A stretch of DNA of 40,735 nucleotides from Pseudomonadota bacterium (lineage in GTDB: Bacteria; Bdellovibrionota; UBA1018; CAIMNF01). Location of the stretch: NCBI GenBank assembly GCA_027491115.1, contig JAIXWV010000023.1, positions 1 to 40,735 on the forward strand, given 5' to 3'. Positions 8,825 through 16,732 of this stretch are shown one piece after another. The translations under genes and the position numbers were made by a program. Each line of letters begins with the position of its first letter. Positions within the stretch are counted from its first letter, which is position 1. Below the pieces are notes generated by a model, which saw only the letters and a list, made by a program, of their open reading frames with translations, made no database searches and was not told where the DNA came from.

Positions 8825-10105
8825 ATGAACACCGCTTCCGGATCCCAAAAGCTGCTCCCATCGCTCGGTCTCCTGGCTTTGATCGCTTCTTGTTTCAACT
8901 GCACGGTCGGCGGGGGGATCTTCCGGCTGCCCCAAAGTGTTTACGCCATTTCGGGCCAAGCCTCGCTTCTGGTGTACCTGCTGTGCTTTCTGGTTATGCT
9001 TTCGGTGGCGGGAGTGTTCATCATCGTCGGTCGGACCATCCGGGTCAGCGGCGGACCCTACGCGTATGTGAAACCCGTGCTCGGTGAGTTCACCGCCTTT
9101 CTTTCGGGAGTGCTGCTCTGGTTCCTGGCCACCTTTGCTTTTGCCTCGGTATCGAACGCCTACGCCCATTTTGCAGGAATGCTGATCCCGGGGGGCACCG
9201 GCCCGATCGGTGAAGCGATCATTCTCGCCCTCAGTCTGACGGCGCTGGCACTCTTCAATGTGCGGGGAGCGAAGGCCGGTGGAGGCGTCAGCACCGCCAT
9301 TGCCTTGATCAAGATCCTTCCGTTGCTGCTTTTGTTCGGAGCCGGCGTGGGGAGCCTCAAGGCCGAAGCCTTGGCTCTTCCATCTGAGTTGCCTATCGAC
9401 TCGATCGCGCGGGCCGCGATGGTGCTGATCTTCGCGTTCACGGGAGTCGAAAGCGCGCTCATCCCGAGTGCCGAGATCCAGAACCCCGAAAAGAACCTGC
9501 CGCGGGCCCTGTTTCTTTCGTCATTCTTGGTGCTCGTGCTGTATCTCGGAGTCCACTCGGTGAGCCAGAGCGTGCTGGGAGAAGGCCTCGGTCGGCCGGG
9601 AATCGCGCCCCTGGCAGAAAGTGCCGGGATCCTGCTCGGCCCGGTCGGAGAACGGATCTTGGCTTTTGGCGCAGTGTTTTCGACCTTGGGGTACCTGAGC
9701 GCGATGACCCTCAGTCTGCCCCGGAGCCTGCTCGCCTTCGCCGAAGACGGGTTCTTGCCGAAACCACTTGCGCGACTCTCTGAACGTCACCATGCTCCGG
9801 TGAATGCGATTTGGATCCAGGTCTTGATCGTATACCTTTTGGCTGTCTCGAGTCAGTTCGAGAAACTCGCCGTTCTCGCCAATCTTTCTGCGATTCTCAT
9901 GTACCTGCTGTGCGCCTTCGCGGCGATTCTTCTCCTCAGACGGGAAAACAAAACCCCTTGGCTACCGGTACCGGTTCTGGCCATGCTCATGATGAGCTTC
10001 TTGCTCACGAGTGTGACCTCGACCGAATGGTTCTCGGTCACGGGACTCCTGGTACTCTCCTCGCTTTTGTATTATTGGAAGCGCGGCAGGAAAACGAGCC
10101 CGTAG
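8825..10105 (+). CDS. APC-superfamily amino acid permease
   Basis: 426 residues with about 12 membrane segments. The first segment carries CTVGGGIFRLPQSVY, the G-(G/S)-G-I-F unwound-helix motif that binds the substrate carboxyl and amino groups in APC transporters. GGPYAYV in segment 3 and FAFTGVESALIPSAE in segment 6 are also family hallmarks. It probably imports or exchanges an amino acid or related amine across the inner membrane. Specificity cannot be read from the sequence. Its last 34 bases overlap the end of the anti-sigma candidate on the other strand. Confidence 0.9.
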   Translation: MNTASGSQKLLPSLGLLALIASCFNCTVGGGIFRLPQSVYAISGQASLLVYLLCFLVMLSVAGVFIIVGRTIRVSGGPYAYVKPVLGEFTAFLSGVLLWFLATFAFASVSNAYAHFAGMLIPGGTGPIGEAIILALSLTALALFNVRGAKAGGGVSTAIALIKILPLLLLFGAGVGSLKAEALALPSELPIDSIARAAMVLIFAFTGVESALIPSAEIQNPEKNLPRALFLSSFLVLVLYLGVHSVSQSVLGEGLGRPGIAPLAESAGILLGPVGERILAFGAVFSTLGYLSAMTLSLPRSLLAFAEDGFLPKPLARLSERHHAPVNAIWIQVLIVYLLAVSSQFEKLAVLANLSAILMYLLCAFAAILLLRRENKTPWLPVPVLAMLMMSFLLTSVTSTEWFSVTGLLVLSSLLYYWKRGRKTSP

Positions 10106-10608
10106 GCCACCGCCATCGCGGCACCGATCCAGGCGAGCACGAATTCCGGATGCAGGTGCGGAATGCCTCCTCCAATCATGAAAGAAATGAACAGGAGTAC
10201 GCCGAGCGACGTCAGGGTGAGGGCGCCGGCCATCGCCAGGGGATTCCGAGCGAGCACCCGACGCATTGATGGACCGAGCCAGAGCGGCGCCAGAATTGCT
10301 GTCAGACTCATGAAGATCCCGCCGCAAAACAGGCCACAGGCCACATGTCCGTAAGCCTCGACAAACCCCATGAGCCCCTTCCCGCCTCCGATCGGCCCGA
10401 GTCCGAATTGCGGGCACACGGCCAAGGTCAGCGCTCCTGAAACCGCATGAAGCGCAAGCGTTCGACCGAGTGTCGCGCCCACCCCGGGGTTCAGGTCTTT
10501 CTGAAGCTCGGTCTTGATGTGAAGACTCAGTGTCTTTGGTGGGATGACTCCTGGATCTTGCTTAAATTGCTGATACTCTTGTTTGAGCTGTTTTTCCTCT
10601 GAACTCAT
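10072..10608 (-). CDS. Integral membrane anti-sigma factor candidate (NrsF-like)
   Basis: 178 residues: a soluble N-terminus of about 45 residues, then four hydrophobic segments (about 46-65, 84-107, 120-144, 150-170). Its start overlaps the ECF sigma stop by ATGA (10605-10608), and AGGAGG lies upstream, so the two are made together. This is the normal arrangement for a sigma/anti-sigma pair. Cysteines occur in or near the membrane segments (CPQF and ACGLFCGG). In NrsF (DUF1109) of Caulobacter, membrane cysteines matter for heavy-metal sensing. NrsF has six membrane segments, so this would be a shorter relative. The function rests mainly on gene context. A decayed copy of its C-terminus is at 13402-13493. 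Confidence 0.6.
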   Translation of the reverse strand: MSSEEKQLKQEYQQFKQDPGVIPPKTLSLHIKTELQKDLNPGVGATLGRTLALHAVSGALTLAVCPQFGLGPIGGGKGLMGFVEAYGHVACGLFCGGIFMSLTAILAPLWLGPSMRRVLARNPLAMAGALTLTSLGVLLFISFMIGGGIPHLHPEFVLAWIGAAMAVAYGLVFLPRFQ

Positions 10609-11141
10609 ACCGGGGTCCTCCTGATTTTTTGGAGCAGACGGCTCAGGCGCTTCCGGACTCCGGCTTCGCTGAGCTTCAGTTCTTGAGCAAGCCGCTCAAA
10701 GCTCCAGTCGTTCAAATAGCGGTCTTCCAATAACTTCACATCTTCGGGCGGAAGCCCATGGGAGAGTTCGGCCCAAGATGATTCCTGCACCTGTTCGCCT
10801 GTGGATTCTGGCGAAGCCCCTGCCCACTGTTCGAGCGCCTCTGGTTGCACCGGAGTCTCGAGGGTCCGACCTCGCTTCCGGAAGTGGTCCATGAGCACGG
10901 ATCGGGTCAGGGTGAAGACCCAAGGAAGTGCCGGATACCGGGGATCAAACGAAGCCCGGGTCTTGTGGAGCTTGGTCCACACCTCCTGATAGACTTCCTC
11001 GGTGAGCTCGGAATTCCCGACCCGCTTCAAGAGATACCCCCAAATCTTGGGAGAAAGTGCGTCATACAGGCGCGAAAAGCTCTGATCTTCTCCACGCGCA
11101 TAGGCCCGGAAAAGCTCGTCGAGTTCAGAGGTGTCGTGCAT
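10605..11141 (-). CDS. ECF-family RNA polymerase sigma factor
   Basis: About 178 residues. Region 2 spans about 6-80: it starts LDELFRAYARGEDQSFSRLYDAL and includes EEVYQEVWTKLHK and the DNA-melting/-10 segment WVFTLTRSVLMDHFRKRGR. Region 4 lies at about 120-175 (LSHGLPPEDVKLLEDRYL, then the helix-turn-helix WSFERLAQELKLSEAGVRKRLSRLL). No region 1 or 3 is present, as in other ECF factors. GGAGGTGAT (11160-11152) is a perfect ribosome-binding site. ATG 11141 is chosen as the start, with 11153 and GTG 11162 as alternatives. The paired anti-sigma and the divergent cysteine-rich gene suggest a metal or oxidative envelope stress response. Confidence 0.88.
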   Translation of the reverse strand: MHDTSELDELFRAYARGEDQSFSRLYDALSPKIWGYLLKRVGNSELTEEVYQEVWTKLHKTRASFDPRYPALPWVFTLTRSVLMDHFRKRGRTLETPVQPEALEQWAGASPESTGEQVQESSWAELSHGLPPEDVKLLEDRYLNDWSFERLAQELKLSEAGVRKRLSRLLQKIRRTPV

Positions 11142-11179
11142 CACGGGAGCCATCACCTCCACAATACGCTGAATATTCT

Positions 11180-11204
11180 TTTTTGTGACTTCCGGTCACA
11201 AAAA
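11180..11204. promoter_or_regulatory. Perfect 10-bp-arm palindrome in the sigma/Cys-rich intergenic region
   Basis: TTTTTGTGAC (11180-11189) and GTCACAAAAA (11195-11204) are exact reverse complements around TTCCG. The core TGTGA-N7-TCACA resembles a CRP/FNR-family site with one extra spacer base. It lies 38 bases upstream of the sigma start used here and 40 bases before the divergent cysteine-rich gene, so it is well placed to control both. Confidence 0.6.
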
Positions 11205-11244
11205 TCCTACCGGTGCGTATTCCTAGCTGAGGAGAAGCGAATCT

Positions 11245-11469
11245 ATGACCAAACGGAAAATACTAAGTGCCCTCTTGTTCTCGAACCTCTTGGCCTTCGC
11301 CCCGTCGATCAGTCAGGCAGGGCAATGCTCTTGCTCCGAGGCTTGCCAGGCCGCCTGTGCGGAGGGCAAGGGCGAAGCCTGCACCTGCAAGGAATGCGAT
11401 TGCAAGAAAAATCCCTGCAAGCATGGCAAGTGCAAGCATCACCAGAAAGATAAACCGAAGGAAGGCTGA
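11245..11469 (+). CDS. Small exported cysteine-rich putative metal-binding protein
   Basis: 74 residues. MTKRKILSALLFSNLLAFAPSISQA is a signal peptide. The mature part of about 49 residues has ten cysteines, arranged C-x-C, C, C, C-x-C-x2-C-x-C and C-x4-C, followed by a His/Lys-rich tail (KHGKCKHHQKDKPK). GAGGAG precedes the ATG by about 11 nt. The density of Cys and His, with no enzyme motif, suggests a periplasmic metal chelator, like a metallothionein or the small bufferin-type peptides often controlled by NrsF/SigF pairs. No DUF692 (MNIO) peptide-modifying enzyme is in the window, so a true bufferin assignment is not supported. It is divergent from the ECF sigma gene across a palindrome. 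Confidence 0.75.
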   Translation: MTKRKILSALLFSNLLAFAPSISQAGQCSCSEACQAACAEGKGEACTCKECDCKKNPCKHGKCKHHQKDKPKEG

Positions 11470-11470
11470 A

Positions 11471-11515
11471 CTCGAAGCTTTCGAGCCCACCGGGGGGGCG
11501 TTCCCCCTGGTGGGC
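11471..11515. terminator. Two tandem hairpins between convergent genes
   Basis: CTCGAA-GCT-TTCGAG (11471-11485) is followed by a very strong stem: GCCCACC (11485-11491) pairs with GGTGGGC (11509-11515), extended by an inner GGGGG/CCCCC. It sits between the Cys-rich gene end (11469) and the GNAT gene end (11522) and probably stops transcription from both sides. There is no U-tract. Confidence 0.6.
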
Positions 11516-12254: not shown

Positions 12255-12596
12255 CGAGGCAAGAGTATTGCAAAAAGCGACTACGGTCCTGAGAACTATT
12301 CCACAGCCCTCGCTCTGTTTCCTGAGGACACGCAGTTCACCCATGACTTCATCGATCCGAAGACCGTAAACGAGAGAACTAGCATTGAATTCTTCAACTC
12401 AAGATTCCCGATAGAGCGCCTGAATCAGCGTGTTTTCAGGAATCTTGTAGAGGCAAGAGAAGGACCACCACCTAGCTTAGGAACAAATGACCTGGTTCAA
12501 ACATGGACCACCACAGAAGATCAAGCACTACAATTTTTTCTTGGGCCACGGCCATACCATGCTATCCCGAAAAGGCGATTTCAATCCCTCAGTTAG
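12255..12596 (+). pseudogene. Startless ORF, probably a 5'-truncated gene remnant
   Basis: After an in-frame TAG at 12252 the frame stays open for 113 codons to TAG 12594, with no ATG, GTG or TTG start near its beginning. The translation looks protein-like rather than random, for example SDYGPENYSTALALFPEDTQ and later SIEFFNSRFPIERLNQRVF. I do not recognise it. The best explanation is the 3' remnant of a gene whose beginning has been lost. Its stop codon overlaps the ribosome-binding site of the next gene. Confidence 0.4.
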
Positions 12597-12604
12597 GAGA
12601 AACT

Positions 12605-13324
12605 GTGATTTTATCAAGTGTACGTTTGTTGTCGGTGATGTTTGCTTTTCTCGCTTTTGAAGCCGGGGCAGGGGTGATCTGTGCAGACCCTCATCATTCT
12701 CCCCCCTACAATGTTTCGAGCACCAACTCGAACAATGTCCCGATCAACCAGTGTTATCTCAATTCCGCTGGTGAGTGCCTCTACAATAACCATCCCGTAG
12801 GTACTGCTGGTGGCTGGAATACGGGGTGTCCTCCTCAGGTTGCGGGGCCAAATTGTTGCGGGTGGCGAGGTGGAGCTGCCTCGGGCGGCGGAGCCGCTGA
12901 TGGTTGCAGTCCACCCAACCAACTGGTTGCGACTCCTTTCCAATCCTTACTCCCCGGAAATCCGCAGGACTATGATCGATGCAAGAAAGAGGCGGCTTCG
13001 TCGAACAACCCGAGTCGATACAGGTGTTGTGCGCGAGTGCCCACCCCTCCCACCGGTTGTTCCCCGCCGAGCATCGGAGTCCCTTTCCCTTTCCAGACCT
13101 TGGCCTCGAACCCAGCACTAGCGACTGAGTATGCCCGCTGTAAACAGGCTGCAGGCTCGAACAGCTCTTATGTGTGTTGTGTGAAGCCGACCGAATCTTG
13201 TTCTCGGAGCGGGGGATCCCTGCTCAATGTCACTGTCACGAGTGCATCAGCCGGATGTCCGACCGGTATGACGCTTGTTTTCGGACCAGTCCAGAACAAA
13301 GTCTGCTGTAAAAAGAATCGCTAA
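12605..13324 (+). CDS. Secreted cysteine-rich protein with tandem repeats
   Basis: GTG 12605 is taken as the start because AGGAG (12595-12599) lies 5 bases upstream and the product then starts with a signal peptide (MILSSVRLLSVMFAFLAFEAGAG). The 239-residue protein has many Cys, Pro, Ser and Gly residues. Two repeats of 45-50 residues follow one another from about residue 98: GCSPPNQLVATPFQSLL...YDRCKKEA...YRCCARV, then GCSPPSIGVPFPFQTLA...YARCKQAA...YVCCVKP. A third, weaker Cys module ends the protein (SCSRSGGS...GCPTGM...VCCKKN). Each repeat has one single Cys, one R-C-K and a C-C pair, so disulfide-stabilised small domains are likely. No known family was recognised. Confidence 0.75.
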   Translation: MILSSVRLLSVMFAFLAFEAGAGVICADPHHSPPYNVSSTNSNNVPINQCYLNSAGECLYNNHPVGTAGGWNTGCPPQVAGPNCCGWRGGAASGGGAADGCSPPNQLVATPFQSLLPGNPQDYDRCKKEAASSNNPSRYRCCARVPTPPTGCSPPSIGVPFPFQTLASNPALATEYARCKQAAGSNSSYVCCVKPTESCSRSGGSLLNVTVTSASAGCPTGMTLVFGPVQNKVCCKKNR

Positions 13325-15311: not shown

Positions 15312-16502
15312 TCAGGTCCATTTTGTGAAAGGATCGGGAAACTTTCTCCAAACGGCTTTTCCCAAAGCAATTTCATCTTCACGCAGCAAACATTCATTGA
15401 GCGCAGCTCGTAAATTCCGCTCATGGATATCTTTCCCGATGATCACCAGTTCTTGCTGACGATCACCGAACAAGGGATGCCAAAAGGCTTTGATCTGCTG
15501 CTTCAACATCTCGTCTCCACCCCACTGTTCTTCAGGCAGAACAGCGCGCCAAGCACCCGCTGGTCCGAATTGCCAAACCGAACCCGCCATTGAAAAAAGA
15601 CCAATATGCTCAAGACGGCTCGCAAGATACAGAAAACCCTTTGCCCTCAACACACCTTTCCACTCACGACTCAGTAGAGTCGCAAACCGTTCAGGATGCA
15701 ATGGGCGTCGATCCTGGAAGACAAAGCTCGAGATCCCATACTCCAGTGACTCAGCCCTAACCTCTCCCCTAAGGTTTTTCATCCAGCCAGCCGACTGACT
15801 TGCTCGTTCGAAACTAAATAAGCCAGTATTCATGATCTCAGAGAGTTCAACTTTAGCGTATTCAGCTCGAATCACTCGTGCATCCGGATTCAAGGTTTTA
15901 AGGATGCCTTCTAACTCGGCGATCCTCATTCCACCCATGAGATCGGTTTTATTCAAGATTAATACATTCGCAAACTCCACCTGCTCAACCAGCAATTCGA
16001 CAACTGTTCTTTGATCCGATTCATTTATGGCGAGGCCTCGTTTTTTTAACTCCACACCTTCCCGGTAATCATTAAGAAACCGTGGCCCATCCACGACTGT
16101 CACCAGCGTATCGAGGCGCGAAAGATCCGACAGCGACTCACCCAGCTCGTCCTGAAAACTAAAAGTTTCGGCCACGGGCAAAGGTTCGGAAATCCCTGTG
16201 GACTCAATCAATAGATAGTCAAAGCGTCCTTCTTTCGCGAGAGCAGCAACTTCCTTCAAAAGATCCTCACGCAGAGTGCAACAAATACAACCATTGCTCA
16301 TTTCTACAAGCTTCTCTTCACTACGACTGAGAAACATTCCGTCTTTTTTTACAAGCTCAGCGTCAATATTGACTTCACTCATGTCATTGACAATAACGGC
16401 CACTCTCAACCCTTCTCGATTGTTGAGAACATGATTCAACAATGTTGTTTTACCCGCACCCAGAAAACCTGAAAGCACGGTAACCGGCAGCCTTCGCGAC
16501 AT
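15312..16502 (-). CDS. COG0523 metallochaperone GTPase, ZigA-type (copy 1)
   Basis: 396 residues from ATG 16502, with GAGGAGAGGG upstream. The G3E GTPase domain has Walker [16 protein letters not shown] (about 11-25), the metal-binding [12 protein letters not shown] near 80, the Walker B-like [15 protein letters not shown] and the base-specificity motif LNKTDL. The C-terminal CobW_C domain (about 250-380) includes the [10 protein letters not shown] region. It closely resembles the product of 18414-19631. Long (about 400 aa) members of this group are GTP-dependent zinc chaperones of the ZigA/YciC class, induced by zinc starvation. It is coupled by TGATG to the 76-residue protein upstream and driven from the inverted-repeat promoter at 16739-16766. 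Confidence 0.88.
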
Positions 16503-16732
16503 CAGACCCTCTCCTCTTCTTTGGCCCTGAGTAGCCATCCTCGTACATTATTGAAATGCTCGATACTGTACAAGGCGATGAATCGCTTTGCGTCATCGGT
16601 CTCGGGAGTGCGATAGGCACTCAAACGCTCGTTGATAAAACTGTCCGTCAATTTGATTTTACACTTTTCAGTGATACAGAACTTCCAACTTTCATATGAA
16701 GTGGGGATGACTTCAGAGCCTTGATTCTTCAT
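16502..16732 (-). CDS. Small protein translationally coupled to the ZigA-type GTPase
   Basis: 76 residues. Its TGA shares a base with the ATG of the GTPase (TGATG), so the two are made together. The sequence is compact and hydrophilic: [20 protein letters not shown], then [20 protein letters not shown] and [20 protein letters not shown]. The C-x5-C pair could bind metal. I recall similar short ORFs beside ZigA-type genes but cannot name the family. The -10 TATGCT lies 6 bases before ATG 16732, so it is probably leaderless. By position it belongs to the proposed zinc-responsive unit. Confidence 0.7.

Follow-up and report, generated by a model that had tools for sequence, protein, structure and literature searches.

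The closest described counterpart of the locus considered here is SigF-NrsF of Caulobacter, in which, according to PMC3511200, a sigma factor is paired with a multi-pass anti-sigma factor whose two cysteines, which probably face the periplasm, are important for retaining SigF, highly similar motifs (GTAACC-N16-CGAA) stand before both units, and the gene of a small cysteine-containing metal peptide, of the adjoining DUF2282 bufferin operon, is a target. Bufferins are small exported cysteine peptides, modified by MNIO, that sequester periplasmic copper, and PMC12452194 places sigma factor and NrsF genes in Buf1 clusters. CorE of Myxococcus, a copper-responsive extracytoplasmic function (ECF) sigma factor, is described in PMC3107203 as sensing copper by its own cysteine-bearing C-terminal domain, with no linked anti-sigma factor. 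We considered a locus at positions 10072-11469 of a stretch of 40,735 nucleotides (hereafter the window, which is one whole contig) from a member of the Bdellovibrionota, a relative of predatory bacteria with a genome of 2.55 Mb. Here, an ECF sigma factor and a membrane anti-sigma factor are encoded on the minus strand and a cysteine-rich peptide of exported type on the plus strand, and we think it fairly probable that they form a switch that responds to stress from copper (a thiophilic metal) in the envelope, with a small exported metal-buffering peptide as effector. The system appears to work like SigF-NrsF-bufferin without belonging to those families.

The open reading frame (ORF) of the sigma factor (10605-11162, minus strand) matches PF04542 (2.2e-12), PF04545 (3.3e-7) and TIGR02937 (1.2e-19), all over cut-off, and contains sigma-70 regions 2 and 4 only, as in ECF (group IV) factors. 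It opens at GTG 11162, but ATG 11141 is the more likely start, giving a protein of 178 residues, because the GTG lies only 2 bases past the predicted -10 element and a likely Shine-Dalgarno sequence, GGAGGTGAT, stands at 11152-11160. Its stop overlaps the start of the anti-sigma gene (10072-10608, minus strand, 178 residues) as ATGA. In contrast to CorE, the sigma factor has no cysteine and a linked membrane anti-sigma factor, with copper as a putative signal, and its homologues in relatives adjoin anti-sigma genes too. The peptide gene (11245-11469, plus strand, 74 residues) begins 82 bases from the first possible start of the sigma ORF and is preceded by AGGAG, a likely Shine-Dalgarno sequence, at 11230-11234. 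Since relatives share 21-55% identity with the anti-sigma factor and 29-66% with the peptide, we take the ORFs to be real genes. All parts of the layout given in the original prediction, an ECF sigma factor and membrane anti-sigma factor divergent from a tiny Cys/His-rich peptide, were thus found.

The anti-sigma factor was modelled by AlphaFold2 (mean pLDDT 84.4, 14 sequences) as two short N-terminal helices preceding four membrane helices (residues 43-64, 88-110, 123-146 and 154-172), in keeping with the short protein of four segments and membrane cysteines that had been predicted. Cys65, Cys91 and Cys95 are invariant in all 30 anti-sigma factors aligned and sit at membrane-helix ends in the model, and His88, His151 and His153 are invariant in the four members of the genus that were aligned. 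As the N-terminus is taken to be cytoplasmic, these three cysteines and three histidines would lie on the periplasmic side; the loop between helices 2 and 3 is basic, which is consistent with the positive-inside rule. The ZAS anti-sigma domain is defined by HxxxCxxC in a cytoplasmic N-terminus, and residues 1-64 of the present protein contain no cysteine.

Compared with NrsF as described in PMC3511200, the protein has four membrane helices and not six, and three conserved cysteines and not two periplasmic ones. It has no match in Pfam or NCBIfam, the 30 members compared with Pfam at E up to 1 gave no family common to two of them, with NrsF unlisted, and hhalign against six NrsF proteins returned a probability of 1 per cent. 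Membership of NrsF was rejected on these grounds, namely the missing PF06532 match, the hhalign result and the four helices. NrsF itself (PF06532, DUF1109) exceeded its cut-off in 8 of the 58 genomes searched, among which the host is G000 (completeness 98.7%), and in 10 at E up to 0.001, none of them the host; in G019 a match of 22.6 bits, short of the cut-off, was found close to the sigma pair, where the ORF on that strand resembles by eye a cation-diffusion transporter. Sequence searches for solved relatives of the anti-sigma factor and of the peptide gave one match each, one at E 0.21 and the other at E 0.47, both taken as chance, and Foldseek with the anti-sigma model against the PDB gave 256 matches at E up to 10, the best at 0.83 and none at 0.001 or below. 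A search for plasmid copies of either gene yielded none, and among the matches listed in the literature, titles and abstract openings hold no account of the peptide or of the anti-sigma family.

The peptide has an apparent export signal of about 25 residues (11245-11319), judged by eye from its hydrophobic N-terminus, and all ten cysteines fall in the approximately 49 residues that follow, which agrees with the count first given. Their pattern is CxC-x3-C-x3-C-x7-CxC-x2-CxC-x4-C-x4-C, then a His/Lys-rich tail; the 16 peptides aligned have in common CxC-x3-C-x3-C-x2-G ... CxC-x2-C, usually with extra cysteines and in many cases a His/Lys tail. The AlphaFold2 model is disordered (mean pLDDT 50) and gives no usable fold; apo metal-thiolate peptides are often disordered. 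The window peptide has no match in Pfam or NCBIfam, and the 16 peptides compared with Pfam at E up to 1 gave scattered weak matches, each in at most two members, with neither DUF2282 (Buf1) nor a metallothionein model among them. Bacterial metallothioneins are likewise small Cys/His peptides, but the present one has an apparent secretion signal. From the bufferins Buf1, Buf2 and Buf_EGKCG it differs in its CxC/CxxxC pattern and in the lack of MNIO in the host, the profile comparison being with Buf1 DUF2282 alone. MNIO (PF05114; DUF692), which had been noted as missing nearby, gave no match anywhere in the host genome, so that modification of the bufferin type is unlikely; it is present in 14 of the 58 genomes. 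With neither NrsF nor MNIO found in the host, the description of the locus as like SigF-NrsF in layout, yet distinct from it and from bufferins, has held. At the level of the genus the peptide occurs in 6 of 12 and MNIO in 3 of 12, without overlap; mutual exclusion is not claimed as a rule, as G019 and G021 have both.

Between the divergent genes lies a perfect palindrome, TTTTTGTGAC-N5-GTCACAAAAA (11180-11204; arms of 10 bases, gap of 5), which had been pointed out before and which holds both divergent -35 elements and their A/T tails; if up to 2 mismatches are allowed, the window has a single palindrome of this kind and 100 shuffles gave none. Each arm is followed at equal distance by CGTATT, so that GTCACA-N15-CGTA can be read both ways: on the minus strand as the predicted promoter of the sigma/anti-sigma operon (11165-11189; -35 GTCACA at 11184-11189, -10 CGTA at 11165-11168) and on the plus strand as that of the peptide gene (11195-11219; -35 GTCACA at 11195-11200, -10 CGTA at 11216-11219). 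The window contains 2 matches to the motif, against a shuffled mean of 0.08, and the motif differs from the GTAACC-N16-CGAA reported for SigF. We then considered 61 sigma genes, the window included, seeking GTCACA-N14-16-CGT[AT] from 300 bases before to 30 after the matched start. The motif was found in the sigma direction in 49/61 loci and as a divergent copy in 36/61, with 0/61 for the reversed control in each case; the motif was derived from the window, without which the counts are 48/60 and 35/60, and the loci are mutually related, so these are not independent events. A sigma-side motif without a strict divergent copy occurs in 14 loci, and the sigma-side copy is absent in 12, five of which are the Bdellovibrio-like L193-L197.

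Across the host genome, GTCACA-N14-16-CGTA has four matches, two of them the window pair; the other two, inside genes that by eye are dehydratase-like and MltD-like, were dismissed as being at chance level, since the reversed control gives 7. A longer form, GTCACAAA, has 13 of its 16 matches at these loci in G000, G002, G007, G009 and G011, all sigma-bearing, with 2 control matches; in seven related genomes without a detected anti-sigma factor there were 3 matches against 13 in the control. The genome G010, in which the profile found no anti-sigma factor of the four-helix family, has a lone match of the long motif (G010:C2:58331-58355, L220), some 2.3 kb away from the gene of a CusA/CzcA pump (G010:C2:52822-56037).

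The search of the 58 genomes, host included, found the anti-sigma factor in 32 and the peptide in 16; a peptide match in G038, with an internal stop, was dropped as it was not recovered by profile, and the profile added G053. Profiles run over 368 genomes of the phylum found the anti-sigma factor in 193, the peptide in 27 (30 places) and both in 20. The original prediction had been made to depend on linkage of homologous peptides to the sigma factor, and a sigma gene does lie within about 1.5 kb at 21 of the 30 peptide places. Within at most 250 bases upstream of the peptide start, GTCAC[AG]-N14-16-CGT[AT] occurs at 20 of the 22 peptide genes whose genomes bear the anti-sigma factor (control 0/30), the two misses being L142, with a spacer one base longer, and L147, without motif. 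In genomes without a detected anti-sigma factor it stands before 1 of 7 peptide genes, one further place having only 8 bases upstream, and that single case is L083, where a sigma gene and a fragment of an anti-sigma gene adjoin the peptide; the anti-sigma gene there (L083:7283-7411, minus strand) is apparently disrupted or shortened, as the profile matches 43 residues of it at E 9e-5. The peptide gene of G046, on a contig apart from the sigma pair and with no sigma gene in the 9 kb read, keeps the motif, which argues for regulation in trans and not for mere neighbourhood. These comparisons support the view that the peptide belongs to the sigma regulon.

The other genes preceded by the motif in relatives hint at the nature of the stress. 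Of the 99 strict copies of the motif that the fetched loci contain, 46 stand before a sigma gene, 19 before the peptide gene, 3 before the anti-sigma gene, 30 before another gene and 1 before none. Twenty promoter-linked proteins were scanned, 19 from the class of other genes together with L068 from a looser motif; two more of that class (L058, haem-binding; L070, TolC-like, under cut-off) bring those covered to 21 of the 30. The twenty comprise six outer membrane efflux proteins (OEP), three haem-binding proteins, three DUF3347 proteins (L076 just under cut-off), one multicopper oxidase (L072) and one CsoR-type repressor (L080), whose best NCBIfam match is RicR, under its cut-off. The CsoR/RicR-type gene (L080:7558-7890, minus strand) has a sigma-type motif of its own, a hint of crosstalk between copper sensing in the cytoplasm and at the envelope. 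In L067 the gene of an efflux channel precedes those of a CusB-like adaptor, which has the heavy-metal-binding domain PF19335, and of a CusA/CzcA pump (1112 bits); L054 and L058 each hold in one stretch the sigma pair, a haem-binding protein, a motif-bearing peptide and a P-type ATPase matching the copper model, to which L054 adds a CusA/CzcA pump. A metal role of the circuit, and with it the first suggestion of a different periplasmic metal-buffering system, is thus supported indirectly, and copper is our best guess for the signal, because efflux proteins, a multicopper oxidase, a CsoR/RicR-type repressor and copper-type ATPases are the cargo in relatives. Of the metals first put forward, copper is favoured on this evidence and cadmium and chromate appear less likely. 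In the host itself no pump reaches the CusA/CzcA cut-off of 701 bits, the best scoring 404, and the copper ATPase model gave only partial matches under cut-off, of which the best (198 bits) stands where contig C39 begins.

From these comparisons we infer export, topology, sensing by cysteines, release of the sigma factor, the copper signal and buffering as follows. At rest, the short cytoplasmic N-terminal helices of the anti-sigma factor would hold the sigma factor at the membrane. Excess periplasmic metal would bind the three-cysteine cluster where the membrane helices end on the outer side, helped by histidines in the genus, and the metal-bound protein would change shape and free the sigma factor; this role is given to the cysteines because those of NrsF are important for retaining SigF. 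The free sigma factor would read GTCACA-N14-16-CGTA and fire two back-to-back promoters, one of which would renew the sigma and anti-sigma factors and the other yield the peptide. Once exported, the peptide could use its ten thiols, unmodified by MNIO, to hold Cu(I) or an ion like it.

Several observations weigh against this scheme. The window neighbours of the three genes include no copper genes, six of the twenty scanned proteins have no family (L068, L186, L189, L199, L201 and L204), the anti-sigma factor of L113 (Desulfuromonadales) lacks Cys91, L193-L197 lack the motif and the P-type ATPases pass the cadmium-family cut-off as well, with lower scores. The pump of L054 may be Czc-like, and thiol oxidants could serve as the signal. 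No peptide was detected in 173 of the 193 anti-sigma-bearing genomes. At 8 of the 30 peptide places there is no sigma gene in the stretch read, some of these being short contigs and G001:C16 being cut downstream, and at G001:C37 the stretch ends 8 bases upstream of the peptide, which leaves linkage undecidable. Five genomes (G028, G040, G053, G327 and G336) hold the peptide with neither anti-sigma factor nor motif found, so that the peptide can be under other control.

In another reading, the same circuit would respond to thiol oxidation or electrophiles, such as hypochlorous acid or chromate, and the peptide would be a sacrificial thiol or redox buffer. The sensor site is indeed based on cysteines, an ECF sigma/anti-sigma pair of Brucella is reported for hypochlorous acid in PMC8315932, and SigF-NrsF of Caulobacter responds to chromium and cadmium according to PMC3511200; but what the same promoter precedes in relatives includes genes for metal efflux, for a multicopper oxidase and for a CsoR/RicR-type repressor, with no oxidant-repair gene recognised among the 20 promoter-linked proteins (six of them without family), and we regard this explanation as unlikely.

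A circuit of the same build for zinc, cadmium or cobalt instead of copper is, in our judgement, rather improbable. One model (TIGR00914) covers both CusA and CzcA, the L054 pump is presumably Czc-like by its motif, a CobW-type GTPase is encoded in the window (15312-16538, Pfam scan), and the ATPases of L054 and L058 score 393 and 410 bits with the cadmium-family model (cut-off 313.5). However, these ATPases and that of L187 score higher with the copper model TIGR01511 (601 bits for L054, 610 for L058, 601-610 over the three; cut-off 397) and highest with CopA NF007952 (652-724 bits, under its cut-off of 1316), and relatives possess the multicopper oxidase and the RicR-like repressor.

The tight linkage and the tiny apparent regulon of the host would also suit a peptide acting as a signal or metallochaperone for the anti-sigma factor, that is, as a feedback part of the sensor and not as a bulk buffer. 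We consider this very unlikely, as ten thiols suit storage and the switch seems to work without the peptide, which goes undetected in so many genomes that bear the anti-sigma factor.

The least credible explanation is that a separate dimeric regulator uses the palindrome as its operator and that the sigma factor does not control the peptide, since the perfect 10-base arms and the arm gap of 2-6 bases in 19 of 35 two-sided loci (exactly 3 in 10) are set against arms 12-92 bases apart in 15 and overlapping in 1, the 14 loci with the sigma-side copy alone, CGT[A/T] after each half at nearly fixed distance and the single motif copy before the unlinked peptide. A CRP-like or other operator was dropped for the same range of gaps (2-92 bases, and one overlap). 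The palindrome is not a dyad of fixed spacing, because the gap varies and a CGT[A/T] accompanies either arm separately, and it is best read as two back-to-back sigma-dependent promoters, often pressed together; its presence, as first noted, stood. The preference for short gaps could reflect mutually exclusive loading of polymerase, and in the fused promoters renewal of the sigma factor and synthesis of the peptide may compete for one polymerase.

Returning to the copper switch, we would suggest, with less confidence than for the window itself and as a tentative generalisation, that four-helix anti-sigma factors across the phylum may use a three-thiol site to sense Cu(I) directly in the periplasm and may swap their cargo, pumps or an enzyme-free metallothionein-like peptide, in convergence with SigF-NrsF-bufferin. 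If true, this would be a second, independently built extracytoplasmic metal sponge controlled by an envelope sensor, without the iron enzyme that bufferins need. The anti-sigma family, present in 193 of 368 Bdellovibrionota genomes, would gain a testable function and a promoter motif by which to read its regulon, and the swap of pump or peptide under a conserved promoter would offer a handle on exporting versus buffering copper.

On a quick tree of 67 anti-sigma factors from the fetched loci, 9 label changes account for the 19 that are linked to a peptide, where shuffled labels require 16.7 on average (0/500 as low), and the well-supported branches force at least 3, with 27 of 64 inner branches open; linkage to the peptide is therefore clustered but not of one piece. 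Among thirteen named anti-sigma loci most are labelled as Bdellovibrionales, Bacteriovorax, Halobacteriovorax or metagenome-assembled genomes of Bdellovibrionota, the remainder being two labelled Proteobacteria and one Desulfuromonadales. When anti-sigma loci without the peptide were checked for missed cysteine-rich exported ORFs, four weak candidates appeared, none convincing. In G001, where no anti-sigma factor was found, two copies of the peptide gene stand at contig ends, the end of C37 and the start of C16 (L088, L089), and are possibly a repeat that breaks the assembly.

The Bdellovibrio-like L193-L197 (3.7-4.1 Mb, one contig each) carry the sigma/anti-sigma pair without the GTCACA-CGTA motif. 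Two group IV sigma factors of Bdellovibrio are described in PMC3464611 as having no recognised anti-sigma factors; the four primers given there for bd0743 and bd0881 had no match in loci L185-L204, so that the sigma factor of L193-L197 was not matched to either.

To either side of the trio, Pfam identifies genes for an amino acid permease and for a GNAT acetyltransferase, neither of them metal-related. Downstream of the peptide gene, an inverted-repeat search found a GC-rich inverted repeat without a T run at 11485-11515, a possible terminator. Further on, a cysteine-rich ORF of 273 residues (12503-13324, plus strand), unmatched in Pfam, contains a repeated motif, and its product is possibly secreted. 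At the other end of the locus, the permease and anti-sigma genes overlap tail-to-tail by 34 bases (10072-10105).

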